Positions 9,473 to 19,336 of a stretch of DNA of 64,000 nucleotides are shown here, piece after piece. The DNA is taken from the NCBI GenBank assembly GCA_947446025.1, contig CANFEY010000005.1:1-64000 (forward strand), given 5' to 3'. Below the pieces are notes generated by a model that ran no database searches, was not told where the DNA came from, and saw only the letters and a list, made by a program, of their open reading frames with translations. Both the position numbers and the translations under genes were made by a program. Within the stretch, counting starts at the first letter, position 1. Each line of letters begins with the position of its first letter. Origin of the DNA: Bryobacterales bacterium (GTDB lineage: Bacteria; Acidobacteriota; Terriglobia; Bryobacterales; Bryobacteraceae).

Positions 9473-10120
9473 ATGAGAATTTTCGGTCTGGCCGTAGTCG
9501 CGCTGTGGTTTACGGGATGTGGGCAGACGGCAGAGGTGAAGACTCCCGAGTCCAAGGCTCCGGAGGCAGAGATCGTGGTGGCTAAGCCTGAGCCGGTACC
9601 GGTTCCCAAGAGCATTGTGATCCCGGCGGGGACGCGGGTGTCCGTGCGCACTACGACGGCGATCTCCAGCAAAACGGCTGCGACGGGAGAGACCTTTTCG
9701 GCGAGTGTGGCCGAGGCGGTGCTGGCGGACGGCAAGGTGGTCATCCCCAAGGGCGCGGCGGTGGAAGGCGTGGTAGCGGACTCGGACGACGGTGGCCGGG
9801 TGAAGGGCGTGGCGAGTTTGGCACTGGGCTTGACGCACGTCCAGGTGGGAGGCAAGCGGCTGCTGGTGGAAAGCGGCCTCTACACGAAGGAGGCGCGTAC
9901 CACCAAGAAGAAGGACGCCTTGAAGGTCGGGATCGGGGCGGGCATCGGCGCGGCGGTGGGAGCCATTGTCGGCGGCGGCAAGGGTGCCGCGGTGGGAGCG
10001 GCTAGCGGCGCGGGCGCGGGCACCGCAGTCGTGCTGGCAACCCGTGGAGATCCGGCGGTGGTGGAAGCGGAAAGCGTGCTGAGTTTCCGGCTGACCAAGA
10101 GCGTCACGGTAGCGCAATAG
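9473..10120 (+). CDS. Glycine-zipper lipoprotein
   Basis: The ATG at 9473 follows a strong GGAGGGG site. The 215-residue product has a lipoprotein signal peptide with lipobox FTGC (Cys16). A middle domain (about residues 40-120) begins VIPAGTRVSVRTTTAISS and resembles the beta-sheet part of envelope proteins that carry VIPKGA repeats. Residues about 145-190 are a glycine zipper (GIGAGIGAAVGAIVGGG, GAAVGAASGAGAGTA) that could insert in or span a membrane. Similar proteins are frequent in Acidobacteriota and are annotated only as hypothetical. It is likely anchored in the inner or outer membrane. Function is unknown. Confidence 0.8.
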   Translation: MRIFGLAVVALWFTGCGQTAEVKTPESKAPEAEIVVAKPEPVPVPKSIVIPAGTRVSVRTTTAISSKTAATGETFSASVAEAVLADGKVVIPKGAAVEGVVADSDDGGRVKGVASLALGLTHVQVGGKRLLVESGLYTKEARTTKKKDALKVGIGAGIGAAVGAIVGGGKGAAVGAASGAGAGTAVVLATRGDPAVVEAESVLSFRLTKSVTVAQ

Positions 10121-10235
10121 CTGCGGTGCGCCGAAGGGCGGGCCGTTTGAACCCGATGCGCGGAGCCGCCCGATGAAACGCACTACCTTGACAGGCAGTT
10201 CTCCGTTGCCGTATCGTTAACCATGGTTAACTAGT

Positions 10236-11540
10236 GTGTGGAAACGCCTATTCCCCTTTTTCTGTGTAGCATGGTTACCGCTGATGGCGCAGGCTCCAGT
10301 GGATACGGAGCAACGTATCAAGGACCTGGAGGCGCGCATTGAGGAACTGGAACGGAAGGCCCAACCTGCGGCGGCTCCGGCCAAAGTACCGGTGTTGGGA
10401 TCGGTGCAAACCGCGCCTTCCGCGCCGGAACGGACGGCTCCCGCGCCGCCGCTGATTCCGGTGTCGGTGAGTGGGGACTACCGTACCTTCCCCAGTACGG
10501 AAACGCGCCTGCCGGTGGCGGGCTACATGGATTTTCACGTCAACAAAGATTCCGGCGATCCGTTCTCTCCGGATTTTCACCGCTTCGTTTTGTTGTTCGG
10601 CCACAGCTTCAGTGACCGCGTAAAGTTCTGGAGTGAGCTGGAGCTGGAGCACGCGCTGGTGGAAGGGAAAGAGGAGTCCGGCGAGGTGGCACTTGAGCAG
10701 GCGTATCTGGACTTCCTGATCACGCCGAAATTCAACCTGCGGGCGGGCATGCTGCTAGCACCGGTGGGGATCGTGAATGAGCGGCACGAGCCGCCCTCCT
10801 TCAACGGCGTGGAGCGGCCCTTCGTGGAGACGCTGATTATTCCCACGACGTGGCGCGAGTTGGGCGCGGGCGTGACGGGTGACCTGGGACGAGGCTTCCG
10901 TTACCGGGCCTACGTCACCTCACAGTTGGATGCAACGTTGTTCGATGCGGAAAGCGGCATTACCGAGGGGCGTTCGCGAGGGTTTCAGGCGTCGATGCGG
11001 AATCCGGCGAAGATTGGGAGGCTGGAATACGCTGGCCGGCGGCGGTTGACTCTGGGGATCAGTTCCTACACGGGGCACACGGGATTCAATCTGCCGGGCT
11101 TGAATCCACGGGTCGACATGTTGGAGTTTGATGGGCGCTACAGCGTGTCGCGTTTCGACGTGCGCGGGTTGTTCGTAAATACCTGGGTCAGCCGCACAGG
11201 GGAGCTCAACCGGCGGCGGCAGTTGCAGACGGGCGTCAATCCGAACGTGGCGGCACAGATGCGGGGCACCTATCTGGAACCGGCTGTGCATGTTTTCCCG
11301 CGCCGTGCCAGTAACGATCTGATCCTGTTTACGCGCTACGAAAAGTACAACACGCAGCAGCGCATGGCCGCCGGATTTTTACCGCTGGGGGCGTTCAACC
11401 GGTCGTCATGGGTGATGGGCCTGACTTATAAACCGAACGCCGACGTGGCGGTGAAGTTCGACTACGTGGTGAATGGGAACAAAAGCCAGGTGACGCAGGC
11501 GATCAACGGCATCAACCTGGGATTGGGATGGTGGTTCTGA
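10236..11540 (+). CDS. Outer-membrane porin-like protein (phosphate-selective porin O/P type)
   Basis: This 434-residue protein starts at GTG 10236 and has a signal peptide ending LMAQA. A short coiled coil (DTEQRIKDLEARIEELER, about residues 23-40) and a Pro/Ala linker come next, as in trimeric porins with a periplasmic coiled coil. From about residue 80 it alternates like beta-strands and ends in an aromatic residue (GLGWWF), typical of outer-membrane barrels. It is the first gene of a three-gene operon; its stop overlaps the next start (TGATG). Its partners suggest that it moves a substrate or metal used by the downstream redox proteins, which is inference. Confidence 0.8.
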   Translation: MWKRLFPFFCVAWLPLMAQAPVDTEQRIKDLEARIEELERKAQPAAAPAKVPVLGSVQTAPSAPERTAPAPPLIPVSVSGDYRTFPSTETRLPVAGYMDFHVNKDSGDPFSPDFHRFVLLFGHSFSDRVKFWSELELEHALVEGKEESGEVALEQAYLDFLITPKFNLRAGMLLAPVGIVNERHEPPSFNGVERPFVETLIIPTTWRELGAGVTGDLGRGFRYRAYVTSQLDATLFDAESGITEGRSRGFQASMRNPAKIGRLEYAGRRRLTLGISSYTGHTGFNLPGLNPRVDMLEFDGRYSVSRFDVRGLFVNTWVSRTGELNRRRQLQTGVNPNVAAQMRGTYLEPAVHVFPRRASNDLILFTRYEKYNTQQRMAAGFLPLGAFNRSSWVMGLTYKPNADVAVKFDYVVNGNKSQVTQAINGINLGLGWWF

Positions 11541-11905
11541 TGAGACGACACTTTTTACTGCTTGCGATTGCAGCGTTGGCACTGGCGCAGGTGCGGCCGG
11601 CGCAAGATCCAGCCACGCAGACACCGGACCGCGTGGTGAACATTGTGGCGGAGCGGTTCACCTTCAATCCTTCGCGGATCGTGGTGAAGAATGGCGAGCT
11701 GGTGGAGTTCGTGATTATCAGCGACGACACCGACCATGGCTTCAATCTGGCAGCGGCCGGCATTGACGCGGCGATTCCGCAGCAGGGAAAGGGCGAACTG
11801 CGTATCCGGTTTCTGGCCAGCGTGAATGGGCGCTTCGGTTTCGAGTGCTCACGGGCTTGCGGGGCGGGACACAATCTGATGCGGGGCGTTGTGGTGGTGG
11901 AATGA
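11540..11905 (+). CDS. Secreted cupredoxin with CuA-type ligand set
   Basis: The 121-residue product starts at ATG 11540, coupled to the porin stop. A signal peptide (LLLAIAALALAQ) precedes a cupredoxin fold. The ligand pattern matches cytochrome oxidase subunit II and N2O reductase CuA sites: His66 (TDHGF), then Cys103, Cys107, His111 and Met114 in CSRACGAGHNLM, with the exact C-x3-C-x3-H-x2-M spacing. The position between the cysteines that is Glu in COX II is Arg105. There is no membrane hairpin, so it is a soluble CuA-like electron carrier rather than an oxidase subunit. It overlaps the di-heme gene by 4 bp. Confidence 0.85.
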   Translation: MRRHFLLLAIAALALAQVRPAQDPATQTPDRVVNIVAERFTFNPSRIVVKNGELVEFVIISDDTDHGFNLAAAGIDAAIPQQGKGELRIRFLASVNGRFGFECSRACGAGHNLMRGVVVVE

Positions 11906-13053
11906 AACACGGACGGCTGCTTGCACTGATGGGAACACTGGGCGTGGGCTTGTGCCAATCGCCCGACTTTCCGGGCAGTGCGTTGGCGGGCATCACGCCG
12001 AGGGAATTTGAATTGTTCCAAGCGGGGCTGGACGATTTCACGGAAGTGGAGACGGCGGAGGACGGGTTGGGTCCCGCGTTTAATGGAGCCAGTTGCGCGG
12101 TGTGCCACGCCGTGCCGGCCATCGGCGGCATCACCGCGATGACTGAGGTTCGGGCTGGGCATCGGGATGCGGCGGGCAAGTTCACGGAGCTGAACGGCAG
12201 CACTCTGTTTCAACTCTTTTCAACTCCACCGCACACCTGCCAGGTCCGGATTCCGGCTGAGGCGAATGTGGTGGCCCGGCGCGCTCCGATTCCGCTGTTC
12301 GGTGCGGGGTTGGTGGAAGCGATCGGAGACGAAACGCTGTTGGCGTTGGAAGATCCAGAAGACGCGAACGGCGACGGAATCAGCGGGCGCGCGGCGCGCA
12401 TTGAAGATGTGGCGGAGCACCGGATGCGGATCGGGCGATTTGGGTGGAAGGCGCAGCAGGCCACGCTGCTGGCTTTTTCCGGCGACGCTTACCGCAATGA
12501 AATGGGAATCACCAACGAGTTGTTCCCGCTGGAGTCCGCCCCGGGAATCGAGGCGGCGCAGCTCCAGTTGTGCAGCGCGACGCGCGGGATGGAAGACGTG
12601 CGGGACCGGCGGACGAAGCTCCGGGCGATTGATCTGTTTGAGGCGTTCATGAAGTTTCTGGCGCCGATTGAGCCGGTTTCCGAGGATGCCGGCGGGTTAG
12701 CGACTTTTACGGCTACGGGTTGCGCGGCTTGTCACACGCCGGTGTTGACCACGGCACGGAATGCGAATCCGGTATTCGACCACAAGGCTGTGCGTCTGTT
12801 TTCGGATCTGCTGTTGCATGACGTGGGCACGGGCGATGGGATTCCGCAGGGGGCGGCGGAGGCTGATGAGATTCGCACGCCGGGGCTGTGGGGACTGCGG
12901 TTTCGGCGTCCGTTGCTGCATGACGGGAGTGCGGCTACCGTGGTAGAAGCCATCGAGCGTCATGCAGGCGAGGCAACGCGCGTGATCGAGCGGTATCGCG
13001 CACTGCCTAGCGCGGTTCGGGAACAACTGCTCCGGTTCTTGGCGACGCTCTAG
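11902..13053 (+). CDS. Di-heme oxidoreductase (DHOR, DUF1111 family)
   Basis: This is a 383-residue periplasmic protein with two c-type heme motifs, CAVCH (65-69) and CAACH (about 274-278). The flanking text (GPAFNGASCAVCHAVPAIGG; LFSDLLLHDVGTGDG; LWGLRFRRPLLHDGSA) is typical of the putative thiol/di-heme oxidoreductases related to MauG and bacterial cytochrome c peroxidase. A signal peptide is present. The ATG overlaps the CuA gene stop by 4 bp, so porin, CuA protein and DHOR are made together. The likely flow of electrons between CuA and heme is inference. It converges with the next gene and overlaps it by 4 bp. Confidence 0.92.
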   Translation: MKHGRLLALMGTLGVGLCQSPDFPGSALAGITPREFELFQAGLDDFTEVETAEDGLGPAFNGASCAVCHAVPAIGGITAMTEVRAGHRDAAGKFTELNGSTLFQLFSTPPHTCQVRIPAEANVVARRAPIPLFGAGLVEAIGDETLLALEDPEDANGDGISGRAARIEDVAEHRMRIGRFGWKAQQATLLAFSGDAYRNEMGITNELFPLESAPGIEAAQLQLCSATRGMEDVRDRRTKLRAIDLFEAFMKFLAPIEPVSEDAGGLATFTATGCAACHTPVLTTARNANPVFDHKAVRLFSDLLLHDVGTGDGIPQGAAEADEIRTPGLWGLRFRRPLLHDGSAATVVEAIERHAGEATRVIERYRALPSAVREQLLRFLATL

Positions 13054-14132
13054 CGCGCCATGCCTTTGTAGCGCCAGCGGTAGGCGCGGCGGCCAGTGTC
13101 GACTTCGCCCAGGTAGACGTTGCCTTTCGAGTCCGTGGAGATGCTGTGGATGTGGTATAACTCACCGAAGCCGTGGCCTCCGATGCCGCCGAAGAAGCCC
13201 ACTACTTCCATAGAAGCCCGGTCGACGATCTGGACTTTCTTGTTGGTGCCGTCGGGGACGTAGAAGTAGCGCTGCGCCTTGTCGGCCGAGAAGGCTACGC
13301 CGAAAGCAGTTCCGAAACGGGCGGTGGTCTTGCGTTCCACCCAGGCTTCCTTGAGAAACGTGCCGTCGAGCTTGAAGGACTGAATGCGGTTGTTCACGCG
13401 GTCGCCTACGTAGACGATGCCGTCGTTTGAGATCGCGAGGCCGTGGACGGTGTTGAACTGCTCGGGTCCGCGGCCGTCAAAGGTGCGGGCGGCAGGGACG
13501 CTGTCGTCGGGTTTGTTGCCATAGGCTCCCCAATGGCGCTTGTAGGCTCCGGTGGTTGCGTCGAAGACGATCACGCGACGGTTGCCGTAGCCGTCGGCGA
13601 CGAAGACTTCGTTGGTGGGTTCCCACACGGCGATTCCGGCCGCTTTGTTGACGTTCGCGGTGTCATTGCTGCCGTTGGTGATGCCGTGGGTGCCGATTTG
13701 CACCAGGAACTTGCCGGTCTTTGAAAACTTCAGAATGTTGGTATCGGCGTCGCCGTTGCCTGCGATCCATACGTTGTCTTTGGCGTCGACGTAGATGCCG
13801 TGCTCGGTGTCGGGCCAGCTGTAGCCTGTACCCGGTCCACCCCAGGATTGCAGCAGGTTGCCGACCTGGTCGAACTGCAACACCGGCGGGGCGGAAGCGC
13901 AGCAGTCCGCGGTGCCATCACGCAGGTAGTTGTCGTGTTCATCGGTGGTGCGGGGGCGGTGAATGATCCAGATGGTGTCGTGCGAATCGACGTCGACGCC
14001 GGAGACTTGGCCGAGTAGCCAGTGGTTGGGGAGATGCTTGGGCCAAGTGGGGTCGGGTTCGAAGCGCGGCAGCGAGGGCGTGGCCGCAAACAGTCCAACG
14101 GCCGCGAACACGACGGCGAATTTCGTACGCAT
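13050..14132 (-). CDS. Secreted NHL-repeat beta-propeller protein
   Basis: The 360-residue product has a signal peptide (VVFAAVGLFAA) and then a six-bladed NHL-type propeller. Repeated blade signatures are VDVDSHDTIWIIHRP, IYVDAKDNVWIAGNG, IAVWEPTNEVFVADG, LAISNDGIVYVGDR and ISTDSKGNVYLGEV. Relatives include peptidyl-alpha-hydroxyglycine amidating lyases, but in Acidobacteriota most such proteins have no known reaction. It converges with the di-heme gene with a 4-bp overlap and is not part of that operon. An extracellular binding or lyase role is possible. Confidence 0.85.
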   Translation of the reverse strand: MRTKFAVVFAAVGLFAATPSLPRFEPDPTWPKHLPNHWLLGQVSGVDVDSHDTIWIIHRPRTTDEHDNYLRDGTADCCASAPPVLQFDQVGNLLQSWGGPGTGYSWPDTEHGIYVDAKDNVWIAGNGDADTNILKFSKTGKFLVQIGTHGITNGSNDTANVNKAAGIAVWEPTNEVFVADGYGNRRVIVFDATTGAYKRHWGAYGNKPDDSVPAARTFDGRGPEQFNTVHGLAISNDGIVYVGDRVNNRIQSFKLDGTFLKEAWVERKTTARFGTAFGVAFSADKAQRYFYVPDGTNKKVQIVDRASMEVVGFFGGIGGHGFGELYHIHSISTDSKGNVYLGEVDTGRRAYRWRYKGMAR

Positions 14133-15617: not shown

Positions 15618-16463
15618 TCAGTTCTCGGTGGGGGACTTGGAGATCTGGTCCACCACAATCAGGTCCAGGGGGAAGCGCCGGGTGTCGAGCTTGAGGCCTT
15701 GCTTTTCAATGGCATCGAACAAGGACGGCGTGGTCGCGCCATCGAGCAGGCGCTGGGCCTGAGGCGGCAACACGATTCCGTTGGCCATGGCCGCGCGGAT
15801 CAGCATCACGCGGTAGTCCTCCGGGGTAATCTCCAGCGTCACGTCGTAGTAGCCTTTTAGATTTGACTGGTCCACGATGGGACGGTCCATGTAAGTTTCC
15901 AGCGTGTCCACCAAGGTGGGCATGTCCAACTTCTTGCCTTCCAGCATGTTGTTGGCGAAGGTGTAGGAGGCTCCACCGCCCAGGTTGACAGCGACGCCCT
16001 GGCCGGACCCCGTGGCCGCCACGTCGACCTTGCCGTCTTGCGCCGCTGCGTCCGCGGCGACGGGCTTCAGTGCTAGCGGGCGGGTGCCTGGGACTAGGGC
16101 GTAGACAGGGAACTCCTTTTGCTCCTTGTGGAATTTCAGGCCGAAGCGGTCGGTCAGGAGGCTCTGGAGCATCTTGGGGATGTCCTTGGTGCTGGACCCG
16201 GCGGGCAAAGTAGCGTTGATGTCGAAGCGAGTTTCCGCGAGCCATTCGGGTCCGGAGATTTGCGCGGGGCGCACGTCGAAGGCCATGGCGAGATAGTTGC
16301 GTAGGGAGAAAGACGCGATGTGGGCTTGCTGGCCGTCCATGCGCAGGCCGATGTTGACGGTGTCGGGTGCCGTAGGCGCGGACGGGCGGATGGAGGCGAC
16401 CTCAAATTGGAGGGGCTGCGCGAAAGCGGCTGCGGTGGTGAGCAAGATGGCGAGTAGCTTCAT
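15618..16463 (-). CDS. TIGR03435 family secreted protein
   Basis: The 281-residue protein has a signal peptide (MKLLAILLTTAAAFAQP) followed at once by the family hallmark FEVASIRPSAP. Further hallmark pieces are NYLAMAFDV, LLTDRFGLKFHKEQKEFPVYALV and VDQSNLKGYYDVTLEITPE. This family was defined in Candidatus Solibacter, where it is expanded, and its function is unknown. Many members lie near BlaR1-like regulators; none is seen here. It sits 38 bp downstream of the propeller/di-heme gene on the same strand and could share its transcript. Confidence 0.93.
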   Translation of the reverse strand: MKLLAILLTTAAAFAQPLQFEVASIRPSAPTAPDTVNIGLRMDGQQAHIASFSLRNYLAMAFDVRPAQISGPEWLAETRFDINATLPAGSSTKDIPKMLQSLLTDRFGLKFHKEQKEFPVYALVPGTRPLALKPVAADAAAQDGKVDVAATGSGQGVAVNLGGGASYTFANNMLEGKKLDMPTLVDTLETYMDRPIVDQSNLKGYYDVTLEITPEDYRVMLIRAAMANGIVLPPQAQRLLDGATTPSLFDAIEKQGLKLDTRRFPLDLIVVDQISKSPTEN

Positions 16464-16501: not shown

Positions 16502-19336
16502 TTAGCGCCTGCGATTGCGGAGGACTTCCTGGCCGATGAGGCGGCGGCCGGAGCCCGGGGTGGCGGCGAGGTAGGTGACTTCCTGGCCGGGGGTGGAGGC
16601 CAGGGCGCGCAGGGCGCTATCGGAGAGGCTGCCGAATAGGCGGGTGGCCGGGTCGTACAGGTACGACTCGATGCGGCCGTTGCGGGCTACGGTGGCGACC
16701 AGGTCGCACTCCACGGTGACGCCGTCTAAGGCCTTCGAGGTAAACGGCGCGGCGGCGCGGCGCATCAGCAGGTCGATACGGGGGTTCACCGCGGCGGCGT
16801 TGTCTTTCGTCAGGGTCACTTGCTGGCCGACGACCGGGGCCAAATCCGTGTCGAAGGCGAGCATGAACTGCTCCATGTCACGGCGCGCGCCGTCGGGATT
16901 GGCCTGCGGAAAGCCGGAATTGCCCGTGGGGCGGAATACCGACGCGGTGAAGAAGCGGAACAATGTATCTGCCGAGCCGTCGCCGGTAAAGCCGAAGCCG
17001 CGGATCTGATCGTTCATCTGCGCGGTGCCGGGTTGATCAAAGAACGTAATGGGCGGATTCCCGAACATGCCGATCTTGGTGTACTGGTTGCGCAGATGCG
17101 GGATTTTCACAATTTGCGGCAGGGCTTCGAAGCTCTGGCTCATTCCGGTGCCGAAGAAACCTTTGGATGAATCCAGAACGTGGCAGCCGTTGCAGTTGAA
17201 GCTGGTCTTGCCGAAGATGGCCTCCAGCGCGGTGTTGTTGATGCCGTCCGAAGGCCGGGAGCCGCTGTAGAAATCCGCGCCGCGCTGCTGCGACGGGGTG
17301 AGCGAATTGTCCAGATTGCGGATGGGGCTGGGCGGCAGCTGAACCTGGAGCTGGAAATCGGCGAAGCGCTGCATGTCGGCCGCGGAGGGCTTTTCCGGAC
17401 TCCCGATCAAGCCTTCGAACGCGCCCTGGAAATTCTTGAAGGAGATGTTGGAGTCAAACGGATCGTTGCCCAACGGGCCCACCGAGCGGTCGCCACGCCA
17501 GTGCATGGCACCGGAGTATTTCATGCCGCGCAGGGTCTGCGTGGTGAAGGGTCCCTTCATGGGATGGAAGTCCTGGGCGACGCCGGTGCCATTGAGGGGC
17601 GTGTTGATGCCGACGCCGGCGAGCGAAAGAAGCGGCAGCAGGTTTCCGAAGACGATGGGAATGTTGCCCTTGGTGACCACGTCATCGGGATTGCCCAGGT
17701 CCCAGGCGAGGTCGTCCAGGTCGCCGAAGATGTGGCAACTGGAGCAGGTGGCTTCGCCGTTGCCGGAAAAGCGCGTGGCGTCGTAGAGCATGGGGCGGCC
17801 TTGAACCACGGAAGCGGGTTCGGGGTTGGGCAGGAAGAAGCCGGCGAGTTCGGCTTTGGTCTTGAGGTCGATCACCTTGACCGCATTGTCGAAGCGCGTC
17901 ATCGCGTAGAGCAGGCCGCGCGGCTCATCGAGCACGACGCCGCTGACGCCGCCTCCGCTGACAGGGATGTAGTTGGCGCTGGCCACGGCGGGATTGAAGG
18001 AATCGTTTTCCAGCTGCGCTGTATTTAGCACGCCCACTTTGCTGGAACCGAAGGCGGCGACGTACAGAGTGGTGCCGTCCGCGCTCACGGCCATGTCGTT
18101 GGGGGTAGCCAGACTGTGGCGTTTCGCGTTGGGATCGAAGTAGACGTTCGAGGCCAGCGTGCCATAGTCGATGTGTTTGTTCAAGTGCCGCGGGGTCACG
18201 GTGCTGCCGGAGATGACCGCGATGCGGGATTCGGCCAGGTGGCCTTGCACCGTGCTGCCTCCGAAAATGCCGGGGCCTTCGAAGCGGACCTGATTGATGG
18301 ACTCCGTGTTCGAGACGTAGAGCTTGCCGGTGACCGGGTTGGTGACCATATTGAAGAGCGTGGTGCCGGCGTGCGCGTAGGCGGAACGCTGGGTGAGCGC
18401 GTTGGCGTCGATGGAGAAGACGTCGGAATCCGGCAAGTTGAAGCGCACCGAACCATCCCAGCTGCGCCGCAGTTCGTCTTCCCAGTGGCCGGTCTGGTTG
18501 TTGTACTTCACGATCAGGCCGACCTCGGGAGCCTTTTCGCCTTTGGCGTTGGCGGCGGGACCCGGATTGCCGCCGGGGCTCACCGTGCCGTCGGCCAGCG
18601 TGCAGGGGACGCGTTTGAATCCGATGCAGACGCGTTCCTGCTGAACGGTGGTGGTCTGGTTGCCGCTATGGAAGCCGGCGACGTAGACAGTGCTCTTATC
18701 CGGGCTGACGGCCAGGGCACGCGGCGTGTCGGTGAAGAAGCTGAGGATCTTGACGGGCGTGCCGCCGAGCGTGGTGTCGAGATTTTCGGGATCGAAGACC
18801 CACACGTCGGCGCGGGGGACGCCGGGGGTGGTGAGTTGGGGATCGCCTGCGCCGGGGACGCGAACGATGGATGGGTCGGTGCGCTGCTGGCCGCGATGCG
18901 CGGTGGTGATGAAGGCTCGCGGCGGGGTACCGGCGAAGACGATGTCTCGGGGCTCGTCACCGACCAGCAGTGTGCGCGTGACGTGGGGCGTACCGGTCAG
19001 CGTGACGATGCTGATGCTGTCGGAAAGGTGGTTGACTACCCAGACTTCCGTGTTGCTGCGGGCGGCGACGGCTGCAGGTTCCATGCCGACGGGCACCCGT
19101 TTGGGACCTGGGGAGGTGGATGTCAGGTCGAAGACTTCCAGGGTCCCGTTGGGCGTGTTCACGGCGAAGAGCGACTTGCCGTCAGGGGAGAGTGCTAGCG
19201 GCCGCACGTGGCCGGATTCGAATTCCACGAAGGCGGGTCCGACGGTGGAGGCCGCGTCGCGTTCCTGGGCGATCAGCGCCGCGCCTATCAAGGCTAGCGC
19301 GGCGAGGGAGGCCAGCTTTAGAGTTAGGGGTTGCAA
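16502..19336 (-). CDS. Beta-propeller / di-heme cytochrome c fusion protein
   Basis: This is a large secreted protein of 944 residues. A signal peptide is followed by YncE/lactonase-like propeller blades: VRPLALSPDGKSLFAVNTPN, VSPDKSTVYVAGFHSGN, MAVSADGTTLYVAAFGSSK and a later LDEPRGLLYAMTRFD. From about residue 510 a MauG/cytochrome c peroxidase-like part begins, with heme sites CSSCH (about 529) and CNGCH (about 714) and LRGMKYSGAMHWRGDRSVG between them. It probably oxidises a substrate in the periplasm or at the cell surface. The substrate is unknown. It is upstream of the TIGR03435 gene. Confidence 0.88.
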   Translation of the reverse strand: MQPLTLKLASLAALALIGAALIAQERDAASTVGPAFVEFESGHVRPLALSPDGKSLFAVNTPNGTLEVFDLTSTSPGPKRVPVGMEPAAVAARSNTEVWVVNHLSDSISIVTLTGTPHVTRTLLVGDEPRDIVFAGTPPRAFITTAHRGQQRTDPSIVRVPGAGDPQLTTPGVPRADVWVFDPENLDTTLGGTPVKILSFFTDTPRALAVSPDKSTVYVAGFHSGNQTTTVQQERVCIGFKRVPCTLADGTVSPGGNPGPAANAKGEKAPEVGLIVKYNNQTGHWEDELRRSWDGSVRFNLPDSDVFSIDANALTQRSAYAHAGTTLFNMVTNPVTGKLYVSNTESINQVRFEGPGIFGGSTVQGHLAESRIAVISGSTVTPRHLNKHIDYGTLASNVYFDPNAKRHSLATPNDMAVSADGTTLYVAAFGSSKVGVLNTAQLENDSFNPAVASANYIPVSGGGVSGVVLDEPRGLLYAMTRFDNAVKVIDLKTKAELAGFFLPNPEPASVVQGRPMLYDATRFSGNGEATCSSCHIFGDLDDLAWDLGNPDDVVTKGNIPIVFGNLLPLLSLAGVGINTPLNGTGVAQDFHPMKGPFTTQTLRGMKYSGAMHWRGDRSVGPLGNDPFDSNISFKNFQGAFEGLIGSPEKPSAADMQRFADFQLQVQLPPSPIRNLDNSLTPSQQRGADFYSGSRPSDGINNTALEAIFGKTSFNCNGCHVLDSSKGFFGTGMSQSFEALPQIVKIPHLRNQYTKIGMFGNPPITFFDQPGTAQMNDQIRGFGFTGDGSADTLFRFFTASVFRPTGNSGFPQANPDGARRDMEQFMLAFDTDLAPVVGQQVTLTKDNAAAVNPRIDLLMRRAAAPFTSKALDGVTVECDLVATVARNGRIESYLYDPATRLFGSLSDSALRALASTPGQEVTYLAATPGSGRRLIGQEVLRNRRR

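Follow-up and report, generated by a model that had tools for sequence, protein, structure and literature searches.

The locus considered here raises the question of why a free-standing CuA protein is encoded between an outer-membrane porin and a di-heme oxidoreductase (DHOR). The window is the whole stretch of 64,000 nucleotides analysed from a contig of a Bryobacterales bacterium. On the whole, the triad is a conserved three-gene set carried by soil bacteria of the phylum Acidobacteriota, and it probably constitutes an undescribed route of Mn or Fe uptake including an electron-transfer step. The new result is regulatory and well supported: the triad and metal importer genes share a DNA control site. 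According to the open reading frames, the three genes occupy 10236-13053 of the + strand (Table 1), and the overlaps of 1-4 bp claimed in the original prediction are borne out, with the CuA start codon ATG at 11540 sharing 1 bp with the porin stop codon TGA and the DHOR start sharing 4 bp (ATGA) with the CuA stop.

Table 1. Features of the porin-CuA-DHOR locus in coordinates of the window
Feature	Position	Strand	Remarks
Predicted sigma-70-like promoter TTGACA, 18 nt, TATCGT	10188..10217	+	Consensus scan, 10/12 matches
Perfect 16-bp palindrome GTTAACCATGGTTAAC, predicted MntR/DtxR-type operator	10216..10231		Overlaps presumed transcription start
16-stranded outer-membrane porin, unnamed family	10236..11540	+	434 aa, GTG start
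Soluble periplasmic CuA cupredoxin	11540..11905	+	Reading frame open already from ATG 11528
DHOR, di-heme oxidoreductase (PF06537)	11902..13053	+	383 aa, two CxxCH

The porin belongs to no Pfam or NCBIfam family in profile searches (0 of each), and its profile finds no match among PDB sequences. Its AlphaFold2 model, however, is a barrel of 16 strands (pLDDT 86.6) for which the best Foldseek match is OprP (2o4v, E 6.8e-13), so that the first gene was rightly called porin-like despite the missing Pfam family. The similarity to OprP is one of fold, and without a Pfam family or a PDB profile match the protein does not join the OprP-type sequence family. An alignment of 55 sequences reveals invariant H, D and E residues. 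Nor is the operon a porin-cytochrome conduit of the Mtr/Mto/Pcc kind, which is defined by a multiheme cytochrome with a porin, since it has only the two-heme DHOR. That DHOR scores 140.2 bits with PF06537 (cut-off 22), and its heme motifs C65-C68-H69 and C274-C277-H278 are invariant in 43 sequences. Its profile matches the di-heme peroxidases 1iqc and 3o5c; these fold relatives are taken from the sequence profile only, the structure model being poor (pLDDT 57) and set aside.

For the CuA protein, the score with PF13473 (30.6 bits) is above the cut-off of 27 while that with PF00116 (21.5) is below the cut-off of 22, and the nearest solved relatives are 6pty (E 3.9e-9) and 2cua, which we take to be the CuA of Thermus ba3. 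The complete ligand spacing recognised in the original prediction is confirmed, its H66, C103, C107, H111 and M114 (counted from 11540) being H70, C107, C111, H115 and M118 when counted from 11528. The set is invariant in 12/12 orthologues, and in a wider set H plus C-x3-C-x3-H-x2-M is complete in 61 of 62 CuA genes, the 62nd being cut by a contig end. The protein is a predicted carrier with a putative dinuclear copper site of the purple mixed-valence kind, which would pass electrons to DHOR. It is not a subunit II of cytochrome oxidase (TIGR02866 28.6 against a cut-off of 147.7), and the earlier statement that no oxidase subunit accompanies it also stands, as contig C30, and not the contig of the window, has the only COX1 detected in the genome.

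The gene order is kept far beyond chance, and the prediction, which was to fall if the order were conserved nowhere, survives in this respect. In named genomes, 80 porin loci were retained, and 59 of them have porin, CuA and DHOR in this order; a sample of 396 genomes of the phylum shows it for 17 of its 18 top-ranking CuA relatives. The exceptions among the 80 include three loci without CuA (one of them cut) and two without DHOR. The occurrence of the triad is patchy (12/61 genomes), and the three proteins co-diverge, with Mantel r of 0.72-0.81 over 56 triads after leaving out L058, L099 and L105 as too short or split. Around weaker CuA relatives (at most 96 bits: L137-L147, L013, L023), neither porin nor DHOR was seen within the roughly 3.3 kb inspected per locus, and a wider view around five of these relatives (L166-L168, L037, L038) and around L130 gave no clear pattern; L130 has CuA with a divergent, low-scoring DHOR and without a porin. 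Searched against plasmids, the CuA protein matched 5 records, none spanning 80% of it. In the literature we found no published description of the triad, and the part of PMC10654088 available to us does not mention it. The idea that Shewanella SO1188-1190 is the same operon found no support, the accessible text naming a PepSY protein and conserved hypothetical proteins and no porin.

Below we report the analysis of the promoter. The sigma-70-like call is weak alone, because 1 promoter was found where shuffles give 0.7 expected, and no known riboswitch is recognised, no Rfam family reaching threshold in 9800-13400. The palindrome GTTAACCATGGTTAAC ends 4 bp before the porin start and is the sole match in the genome at up to 2 mismatches, the reversed control likewise giving 1. 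The corresponding motif, type A, is present at 16 of 80 porin promoters where 0.15 would be expected by chance, a count that is partly circular since motifs A, B and C were derived from the same porin loci. The tests on mntH and regulator genes are independent of the loci used to define the motifs. Of the best 30 Nramp loci, 28 were tested after dropping 2 that were too short, and type A precedes mntH in 14 of them (0.14 expected), lying 2-17 nt ahead of the first in-frame start codon. The mntH of the triad's own genome, encoding a Mn importer (MntH 589.8 bits, cut-off 430), is among these 14, and the triad is present in only 2 of the 14 genomes, the other 12 being without it. Of the four triad genomes whose mntH upstream region was readable, G000 and G035 have the site at up to 2 mismatches, G002 has it in the same position with 3 mismatches and G037 has none. 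A further 36 upstream regions of Nramp genes contain type A in 2 cases and type B in none, and in this genome feoAB and the regulator's own promoter are without a type A site. Matches to a Fur-box consensus exceed the threshold at only 2 of the 80 loci (0.4 expected); that consensus fits L100 at 16/19 positions.

A second clade has a palindrome of its own. Type B occurs at the triads of G047, G048, G050 and G054 and, in 4/4, also before their DtxR-type gene; in the two read it lies 1 and 14 nt ahead of the gene start, with FeoB downstream on the same strand. Thus a motif common to the triad and metal genes, which would mark an MntR/DtxR regulon, is found as type A within one genome in 2/4 triad genomes (G000, G035) and as type B with the DtxR gene in 4/4. 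Of the 80 porin loci, 14 have a DtxR/MntR-type gene in the vicinity, which in 10 cases is the immediate, divergently oriented neighbour, and the link of A sites with a DtxR-type gene is modest (12/18 against 2/10, p 0.046, by a statistic that ignores kinship). Ten regulators were scanned, one of them a Fur, and only that of L094 passes an NCBIfam MntR cut-off (178.1 against 153), with a palindrome between it and the porin. The regulator of this genome, on contig C33, reaches nearly equal scores with the MntR model (108.9) and the DtxR model (103.0), far short of the cut-off in either case; it and seven other DtxR-type regulators are below all cut-offs, each scoring higher with MntR NF047407 than with DtxR NF053665. 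Two FUR-family genes are other candidate regulators. We are fairly confident, from these motif and regulator matches, that the operon belongs to a Mn(II)/Fe(II)-responsive regulon of MntR/DtxR type, a confidence tempered by the A-type site being common to triad and mntH in only two of the four readable triad genomes.

More distant porins are followed by other partners. At 10/10 such loci an FMN_bind protein stands in place of CuA and DHOR, the tblastn matches being assigned by coordinates and agreeing in 8/10 with a separate neighbourhood survey. FeoB is near the porin at L100, L104 and L106, Fur at L100, and in Ideonella dechloratans the row is CCP_MauG, porin, FMN_bind and ApbE; heavy-metal RND-type genes are near 10 porin loci. 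FeoB and Fur near distant porins at first favoured iron as the sole metal, an idea given up when the regulator residues, the MntR match and the mntH operators shifted the triad to Mn or both.

Since promoter palindromes and neighbouring regulators put the triad with metal importers, its physiology is likely that of metal acquisition or metal starvation. The best explanation overall, to which we give a probability of roughly 55%, is a module serving at times of Mn(II)/Fe(II) scarcity, with the porin as the entry for metal and with CuA and DHOR performing a periplasmic redox step. Scarce metal would switch the operon on, a regulator presumably binding the palindrome and repressing. The porin may pass Mn, and probably Fe, species across the outer membrane, and CuA may supply the di-heme DHOR with electrons that presumably come from the respiratory chain, the two proteins acting on the metal, most likely by converting Mn(III)/Fe(III) into the divalent ion, which would then cross the inner membrane through MntH or FeoB. 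An uptake role is somewhat favoured, and reduction as the chemical step is only tentatively proposed; the high potentials usual for CuA and for di-heme peroxidases would fit a peroxidase or an oxidation no less than a reduction. Rather unlikely is a dedicated reductive path of Mn assimilation, with Mn(III) complexes imported by the porin, a CuA to di-heme relay giving Mn(II) for MntH, and the same porin scaffold working with flavin carriers for iron at other loci, as an interchangeable redox platform of metal uptake.

Other roles should be weighed against this scarcity module. Bacterial cytochrome c peroxidases take electrons from azurin or cytochrome c, and DHOR might similarly receive those of CuA for reducing periplasmic H2O2 under Mn scarcity, the porin being a nutrient entry for the same stress. 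Such peroxide defence is rather unlikely, as it does not account for the replacement of CuA/DHOR at all ten distant loci, some near FeoB or ApbE, by FMN_bind proteins, which are not known to act as peroxidases, or for the two loci with CuA where no DHOR is seen; yet the DHOR profile does match di-heme peroxidases, a CCP_MauG peroxidase adjoins the porin in Ideonella, and oxidative stress comes with Mn deficiency according to the available part of PMC9334652. The original prediction of an undescribed periplasmic redox module suggested oxidation of a substrate or metal, for example. A conserved envelope redox module of which we found no description is indeed what emerges, but palindromes and regulators point away from the oxidation role. 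We consider it improbable that DHOR draws electrons by oxidation from Mn(II), Fe(II) or an organic substrate and sends them through CuA to an oxidase, for energy or metal detoxification, even though CuA proteins usually hand electrons to oxidases and heavy-metal RND-type or P-type ATPase genes are near some loci, because mntH or DtxR-FeoB operons carry the promoter motif too. In known systems, importers are repressed by MntR with bound Mn (PMC9334652, as far as available), and a pathway for metal oxidation should rather be raised by metal. The ligand set is of a copper-binding type, and PmoD, a CuA protein outside oxidases, is tied to copper-dependent growth in the accessible text of PMC6189053; nevertheless, a copper system in which the CuA protein stores or passes on copper is very improbable, with regulator and operator tied to Mn/Fe importers and the neighbouring regulators scanned being of DtxR/MntR type.

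A large share of the Mn in oxic soils occurs as Mn(III/IV), and the crossing of the Gram-negative outer membrane by Mn is known in few cases. The present system is testable: operator motifs connect its porin family with mntH or FeoB operons, and gene order connects it with redox carriers that replace one another, CuA plus di-heme in some loci and flavin in others. A CuA protein that stands alone would here have a task other than those in oxidases and N2O reductase, and DHOR, a family of which little is characterised, is placed in a context.

Among known systems, the phosphate porins OprP/OprO (2o4v, 4rjw) share the 16-stranded barrel but only 12-13% identity, and the triad porin has conserved acidic and His residues. 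The CuA domains of ba3 oxidase subunit II, N2O reductase and PmoD share the cupredoxin fold, and subunit II also the C-x3-C-x3-H-x2-M set, whereas the triad CuA is free-standing in an operon without an oxidase or NosZ partner, and PmoD has another ligand set (PMC6189053, available part). The EfeUOB/imelysin iron systems likewise bring a DHOR-type (DUF1111) di-heme peroxidase and a cupredoxin domain into a metal-uptake setting (PMC3143127, in part), while the triad has a separate CuA protein and a porin; membership is rejected, since searches for FTR1 in this genome and for imelysin in 61 genomes found neither. The extracytosolic iron reductase clusters of FMN_bind, PepSY and ApbE (PMC8238504) resemble the loci where homologous porins sit with FMN_bind, PepSY_TM, ApbE or FeoB, but employ a flavin carrier in place of CuA plus di-heme, and the word porin is absent from the text available for that paper. 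A likeness in function is offered by MnoP of Bradyrhizobium, for which the accessible part of PMC9334652 mentions no redox partners: MnoP is an outer-membrane channel mediating Mn import, and the control site of the triad also indicates Mn.

The reading frames bear out the original prediction of three genes overlapping by 1-4 bp, with overlaps of 1 and 4 bp, all on the plus strand. The first gene product falls in no family in Pfam and NCBIfam searches; its predicted structure (pLDDT 86.6) has 16 strands and OprP as nearest fold in Foldseek, so that the porin-like character claimed for it holds at the level of the model. The modelled barrel, and the segment from the strand ending at 174 to the strand starting at 207, contain invariant His, Asp, Glu and Asn residues, which would be in keeping with a route for cations. 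The CuA protein passes the Pfam Cupredoxin_1 cut-off (30.6 bits against 27) and falls half a bit under that of the COX2 model, and its closest sequences are CuA domains of oxidase subunit II, e.g. 6pty and 2cua. No oxidase subunit accompanies it, as originally stated, the sole COX1 found in this genome being on a different contig. The di-heme oxidoreductase (DHOR) passes its profile with 140.2 bits. The window also holds a member of the TIGR03435/DUF3738 family and a 944-aa beta-propeller protein with two CxxCH motifs, which matches hydrazine synthase beta weakly (38.7, cut-off 560) and is possibly a further periplasmic heme enzyme.

Coordinates of the triad and of two further genes in the window
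Feature	Position	Strand	Remark
Porin	10236-11540	+	ORF, GTG start
CuA protein	11528 or 11540-11905	+	ORF, two possible starts
DHOR	11902-13053	+	ORF; PF06537
TIGR03435/DUF3738 family member	15618-16463	-	
944-aa protein	16502-19336	-	

The same triad was sought in other genomes, and its order is kept. Among 61 genomes, the present one included, 22 have a CuA-like match (E up to 0.001) and 12 a strong one (E 7e-31 or better); all 12 show porin, CuA and DHOR in the same order, and the remaining matches are weaker CuA or subunit-II-like proteins. A porin profile run on named genomes gave 85 relatives, of which 80 loci were retained; the two sets overlap and their counts are not additive. On the whole, 59 of the 80 porin loci have the full ordered triad on one strand, counting L058, where a contig end cuts the DHOR, and L099 and L105, where porin and DHOR are split in two frames. 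Three loci have porin and DHOR without CuA (one of them cut), two have porin and CuA with no DHOR seen, nine have neither despite room to see them, and close to a contig end six show the porin alone and one a partial CuA. The CuA ligand set is complete in 61 of 62 genes, the other one being cut. In 396 genomes of the phylum, of whose longer list of CuA matches the neighbourhoods of the 18 best (at least 117 bits, the window's own left out) and the next 11 were read, the former have a DHOR in 18/18 and a porin in 17/18, while the latter (96 bits or less) show neither gene in the surrounding 1.5 kb or so. Across 56 triads the pairwise distances correlate between the three proteins (r 0.72-0.81), which fits joint inheritance, an agreement that by itself does not prove shared function. 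At L165 7572-9240 (the locus of L130), possibly a decayed triad, a CuA gene is present with a DHOR-like ORF having a single CxxCH, and a porin was not found.

The commonest neighbour outside the triad is a DtxR/MntR-family regulator, found at 14 of the 80 porins in the interval from 6 kb upstream to 8 kb downstream (Pfam-confirmed for L062), against about 0.4 expected, an estimate based on one or two regulators of this family in each genome that has any; at 10 of the 14 it is adjacent and divergent. All 14 have Glu at the site aligned with the IdeR Cys, and 13 have Asp or Asn at that aligned with the IdeR Met, residues typical of MntR, SloR and ScaR. The regulator of L094, separated from its porin by the palindrome AATGTAGCATTGGCTACATT, passes the NCBIfam MntR cut-off; in eight other DtxR-type proteins scanned, MntR models outscore DtxR models, yet all cut-offs are missed. 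Our genome's regulator is among these eight, with a small gap (108.9 vs 103.0); it is the one DtxR-family gene there (contig C33, beside two FUR-family genes in the genome) and has 65-66% identity to the triad-adjacent regulators of L045 and L050. Such a gene occurs in 12/12 triad genomes vs 33/49 others (Fisher p 0.026, uncorrected for kinship).

Three palindromes, predicted MntR/DtxR-type operators, recur among the 80 porin promoters: type A TTMACYATRGTKAA at 16 (up to 1 mismatch, 0.15 expected), type B TTTAGGNNNNCCTAAA at 10 (up to 2 mismatches, 0.75 expected) and type C TTTTGANNNNTCAAAA at 14 (up to 1 mismatch, 0.1 expected), expectations coming from block shuffles and the motifs from the very loci counted. 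The remaining promoters carry none of them at these thresholds. In the window a perfect type A site lies 4 bp ahead of the porin start. The 16-mer has a single match in this genome at up to 2 mismatches, as does its reversed control, and the 14-mer has 6 sites against 9 in the control; since controls match at least as often, the genome-wide rarity of the site alone proves nothing.

One of the six 14-mer sites (2 mismatches) lies 2 nt ahead of a TTG codon where this genome's mntH is expected to start. This gene (L221 1348-3213) encodes an Nramp-type Mn importer (NCBIfam MntH 589.8, cut-off 430) with a universal stress protein (Usp) domain fused at its C-terminus. The frame is open further upstream, and this start is therefore placed from relatives (about 627 aa), whose open frame ends near it. 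At 14 of the 28 Nramp loci that could be read (0.14 expected), type A (up to 2 mismatches) stands 2-17 nt ahead of the first start codon in frame, in 12/18 genomes with a DtxR-type gene vs 2/10 without (p 0.046). Only two of these 14 genomes, G000 and G035, carry the triad; of the other two triad genomes in the set, G002 shows a variant with 3 mismatches in the same position and type B at its triad, and G037 has no type A site at its Nramp locus. Of 36 further regions upstream of Nramp genes, mostly second copies and members of another family, 2 have type A (over the 40 regions scanned with these, 0.6 would be expected) and none has type B. Type B precedes the DtxR-type gene in all four genomes checked that have type B triads (G047, G048, G050, G054), at 1 and 14 nt from its start in the two read, and where the site was read, FeoB (iron importer) parts follow on the same strand. 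Thus in six genomes, two with type A and four with type B, triad and importer or regulator-importer operon have a site in common, and two different sequences are used. In our genome type A is absent from both feoAB and the promoter of the regulator itself. L276 103-4245 holds an operon, preceded by a perfect type B palindrome, of two DtxR-type genes, each with a FeoA domain, and FeoB as separate N and C genes; L275 is similar in part.

The partners of the porin may be exchanged. An FMN-binding protein follows all ten porins without CuA and DHOR (L100, L104, L106, L108, L113-L118, L118 being one of the six near a contig end), in Nitrospirae, SAR324, Ignavibacteriales, Planctomycetota, Cellvibrio, other proteobacteria and one unclassified host; 8/10 were seen in a second survey, and L106 and L113 are Pfam-confirmed. 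FeoB shares the cluster at L100, L104 and L106 (Pfam-confirmed for L106), and Fur (L100), ApbE (L108) and PepSY_TM (L115) are further neighbours. L076 and L112, without CuA, have DHOR, a DtxR-type gene and a FeoB-cluster gene downstream (FeoB Pfam-confirmed for L076). On an Ideonella dechloratans plasmid, genes for a CCP_MauG peroxidase, the porin, FMN_bind and ApbE follow one another in this order (L201 4481-8865, NZ_CP088082.1), and genes for a TonB receptor and for a nickel transporter lie nearby. As the DHOR profile does not pick up this peroxidase, the porin family seems, from these sequences, to have been joined by a di-heme enzyme on two occasions. The genus Candidatus Manganitrophus is known for Mn(II) oxidation. 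One of its plasmids has a porin homologue (L200 6884-8047, CP114559.1) with no annotated FMN_bind, CuA or DHOR neighbours and a heavy-metal P-type ATPase about 6 kb away. RND-pump-type genes occur near ten porins (L044, L045, L046, L051, L056, L066, L071, L077, L099, L115; ACR_tran checked in Pfam for L045 only), which could be chance, being so common; L044 also has a P-type ATPase.

If the palindromes work the way operators of known MntR/DtxR systems do, the triad would be made when Mn or Fe is short, and the porin residues may form the path of the cation across the outer membrane. The constant theme, judged by gene content, is a porin with a predicted periplasmic electron carrier, either CuA with a di-heme enzyme or a flavin protein. 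The main rival is peroxide removal by the triad, and the matches of the DHOR profile are di-heme cytochrome c peroxidases. Iron reduction for uptake is the reading of FMN_bind/PepSY clusters in passages of PMC8238504, and a passage of PMC3143127 places DUF1111 di-heme peroxidases in imelysin/Efe iron operons; on these grounds our preferred step for the triad would be a periplasmic reduction of Mn(III)/Fe(III) species. It is not an Efe system itself, since neither FTR1 nor imelysin gave a match in this genome. Among the papers listed, judged by title or the opening of the abstract, none describes the triad, subscription journals being mostly outside that scope, and the portion of PMC10654088 examined does not mention it. 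The triad is taken as a new form of metal-uptake module, and it would be more than a variant if a reductive Mn path were shown.
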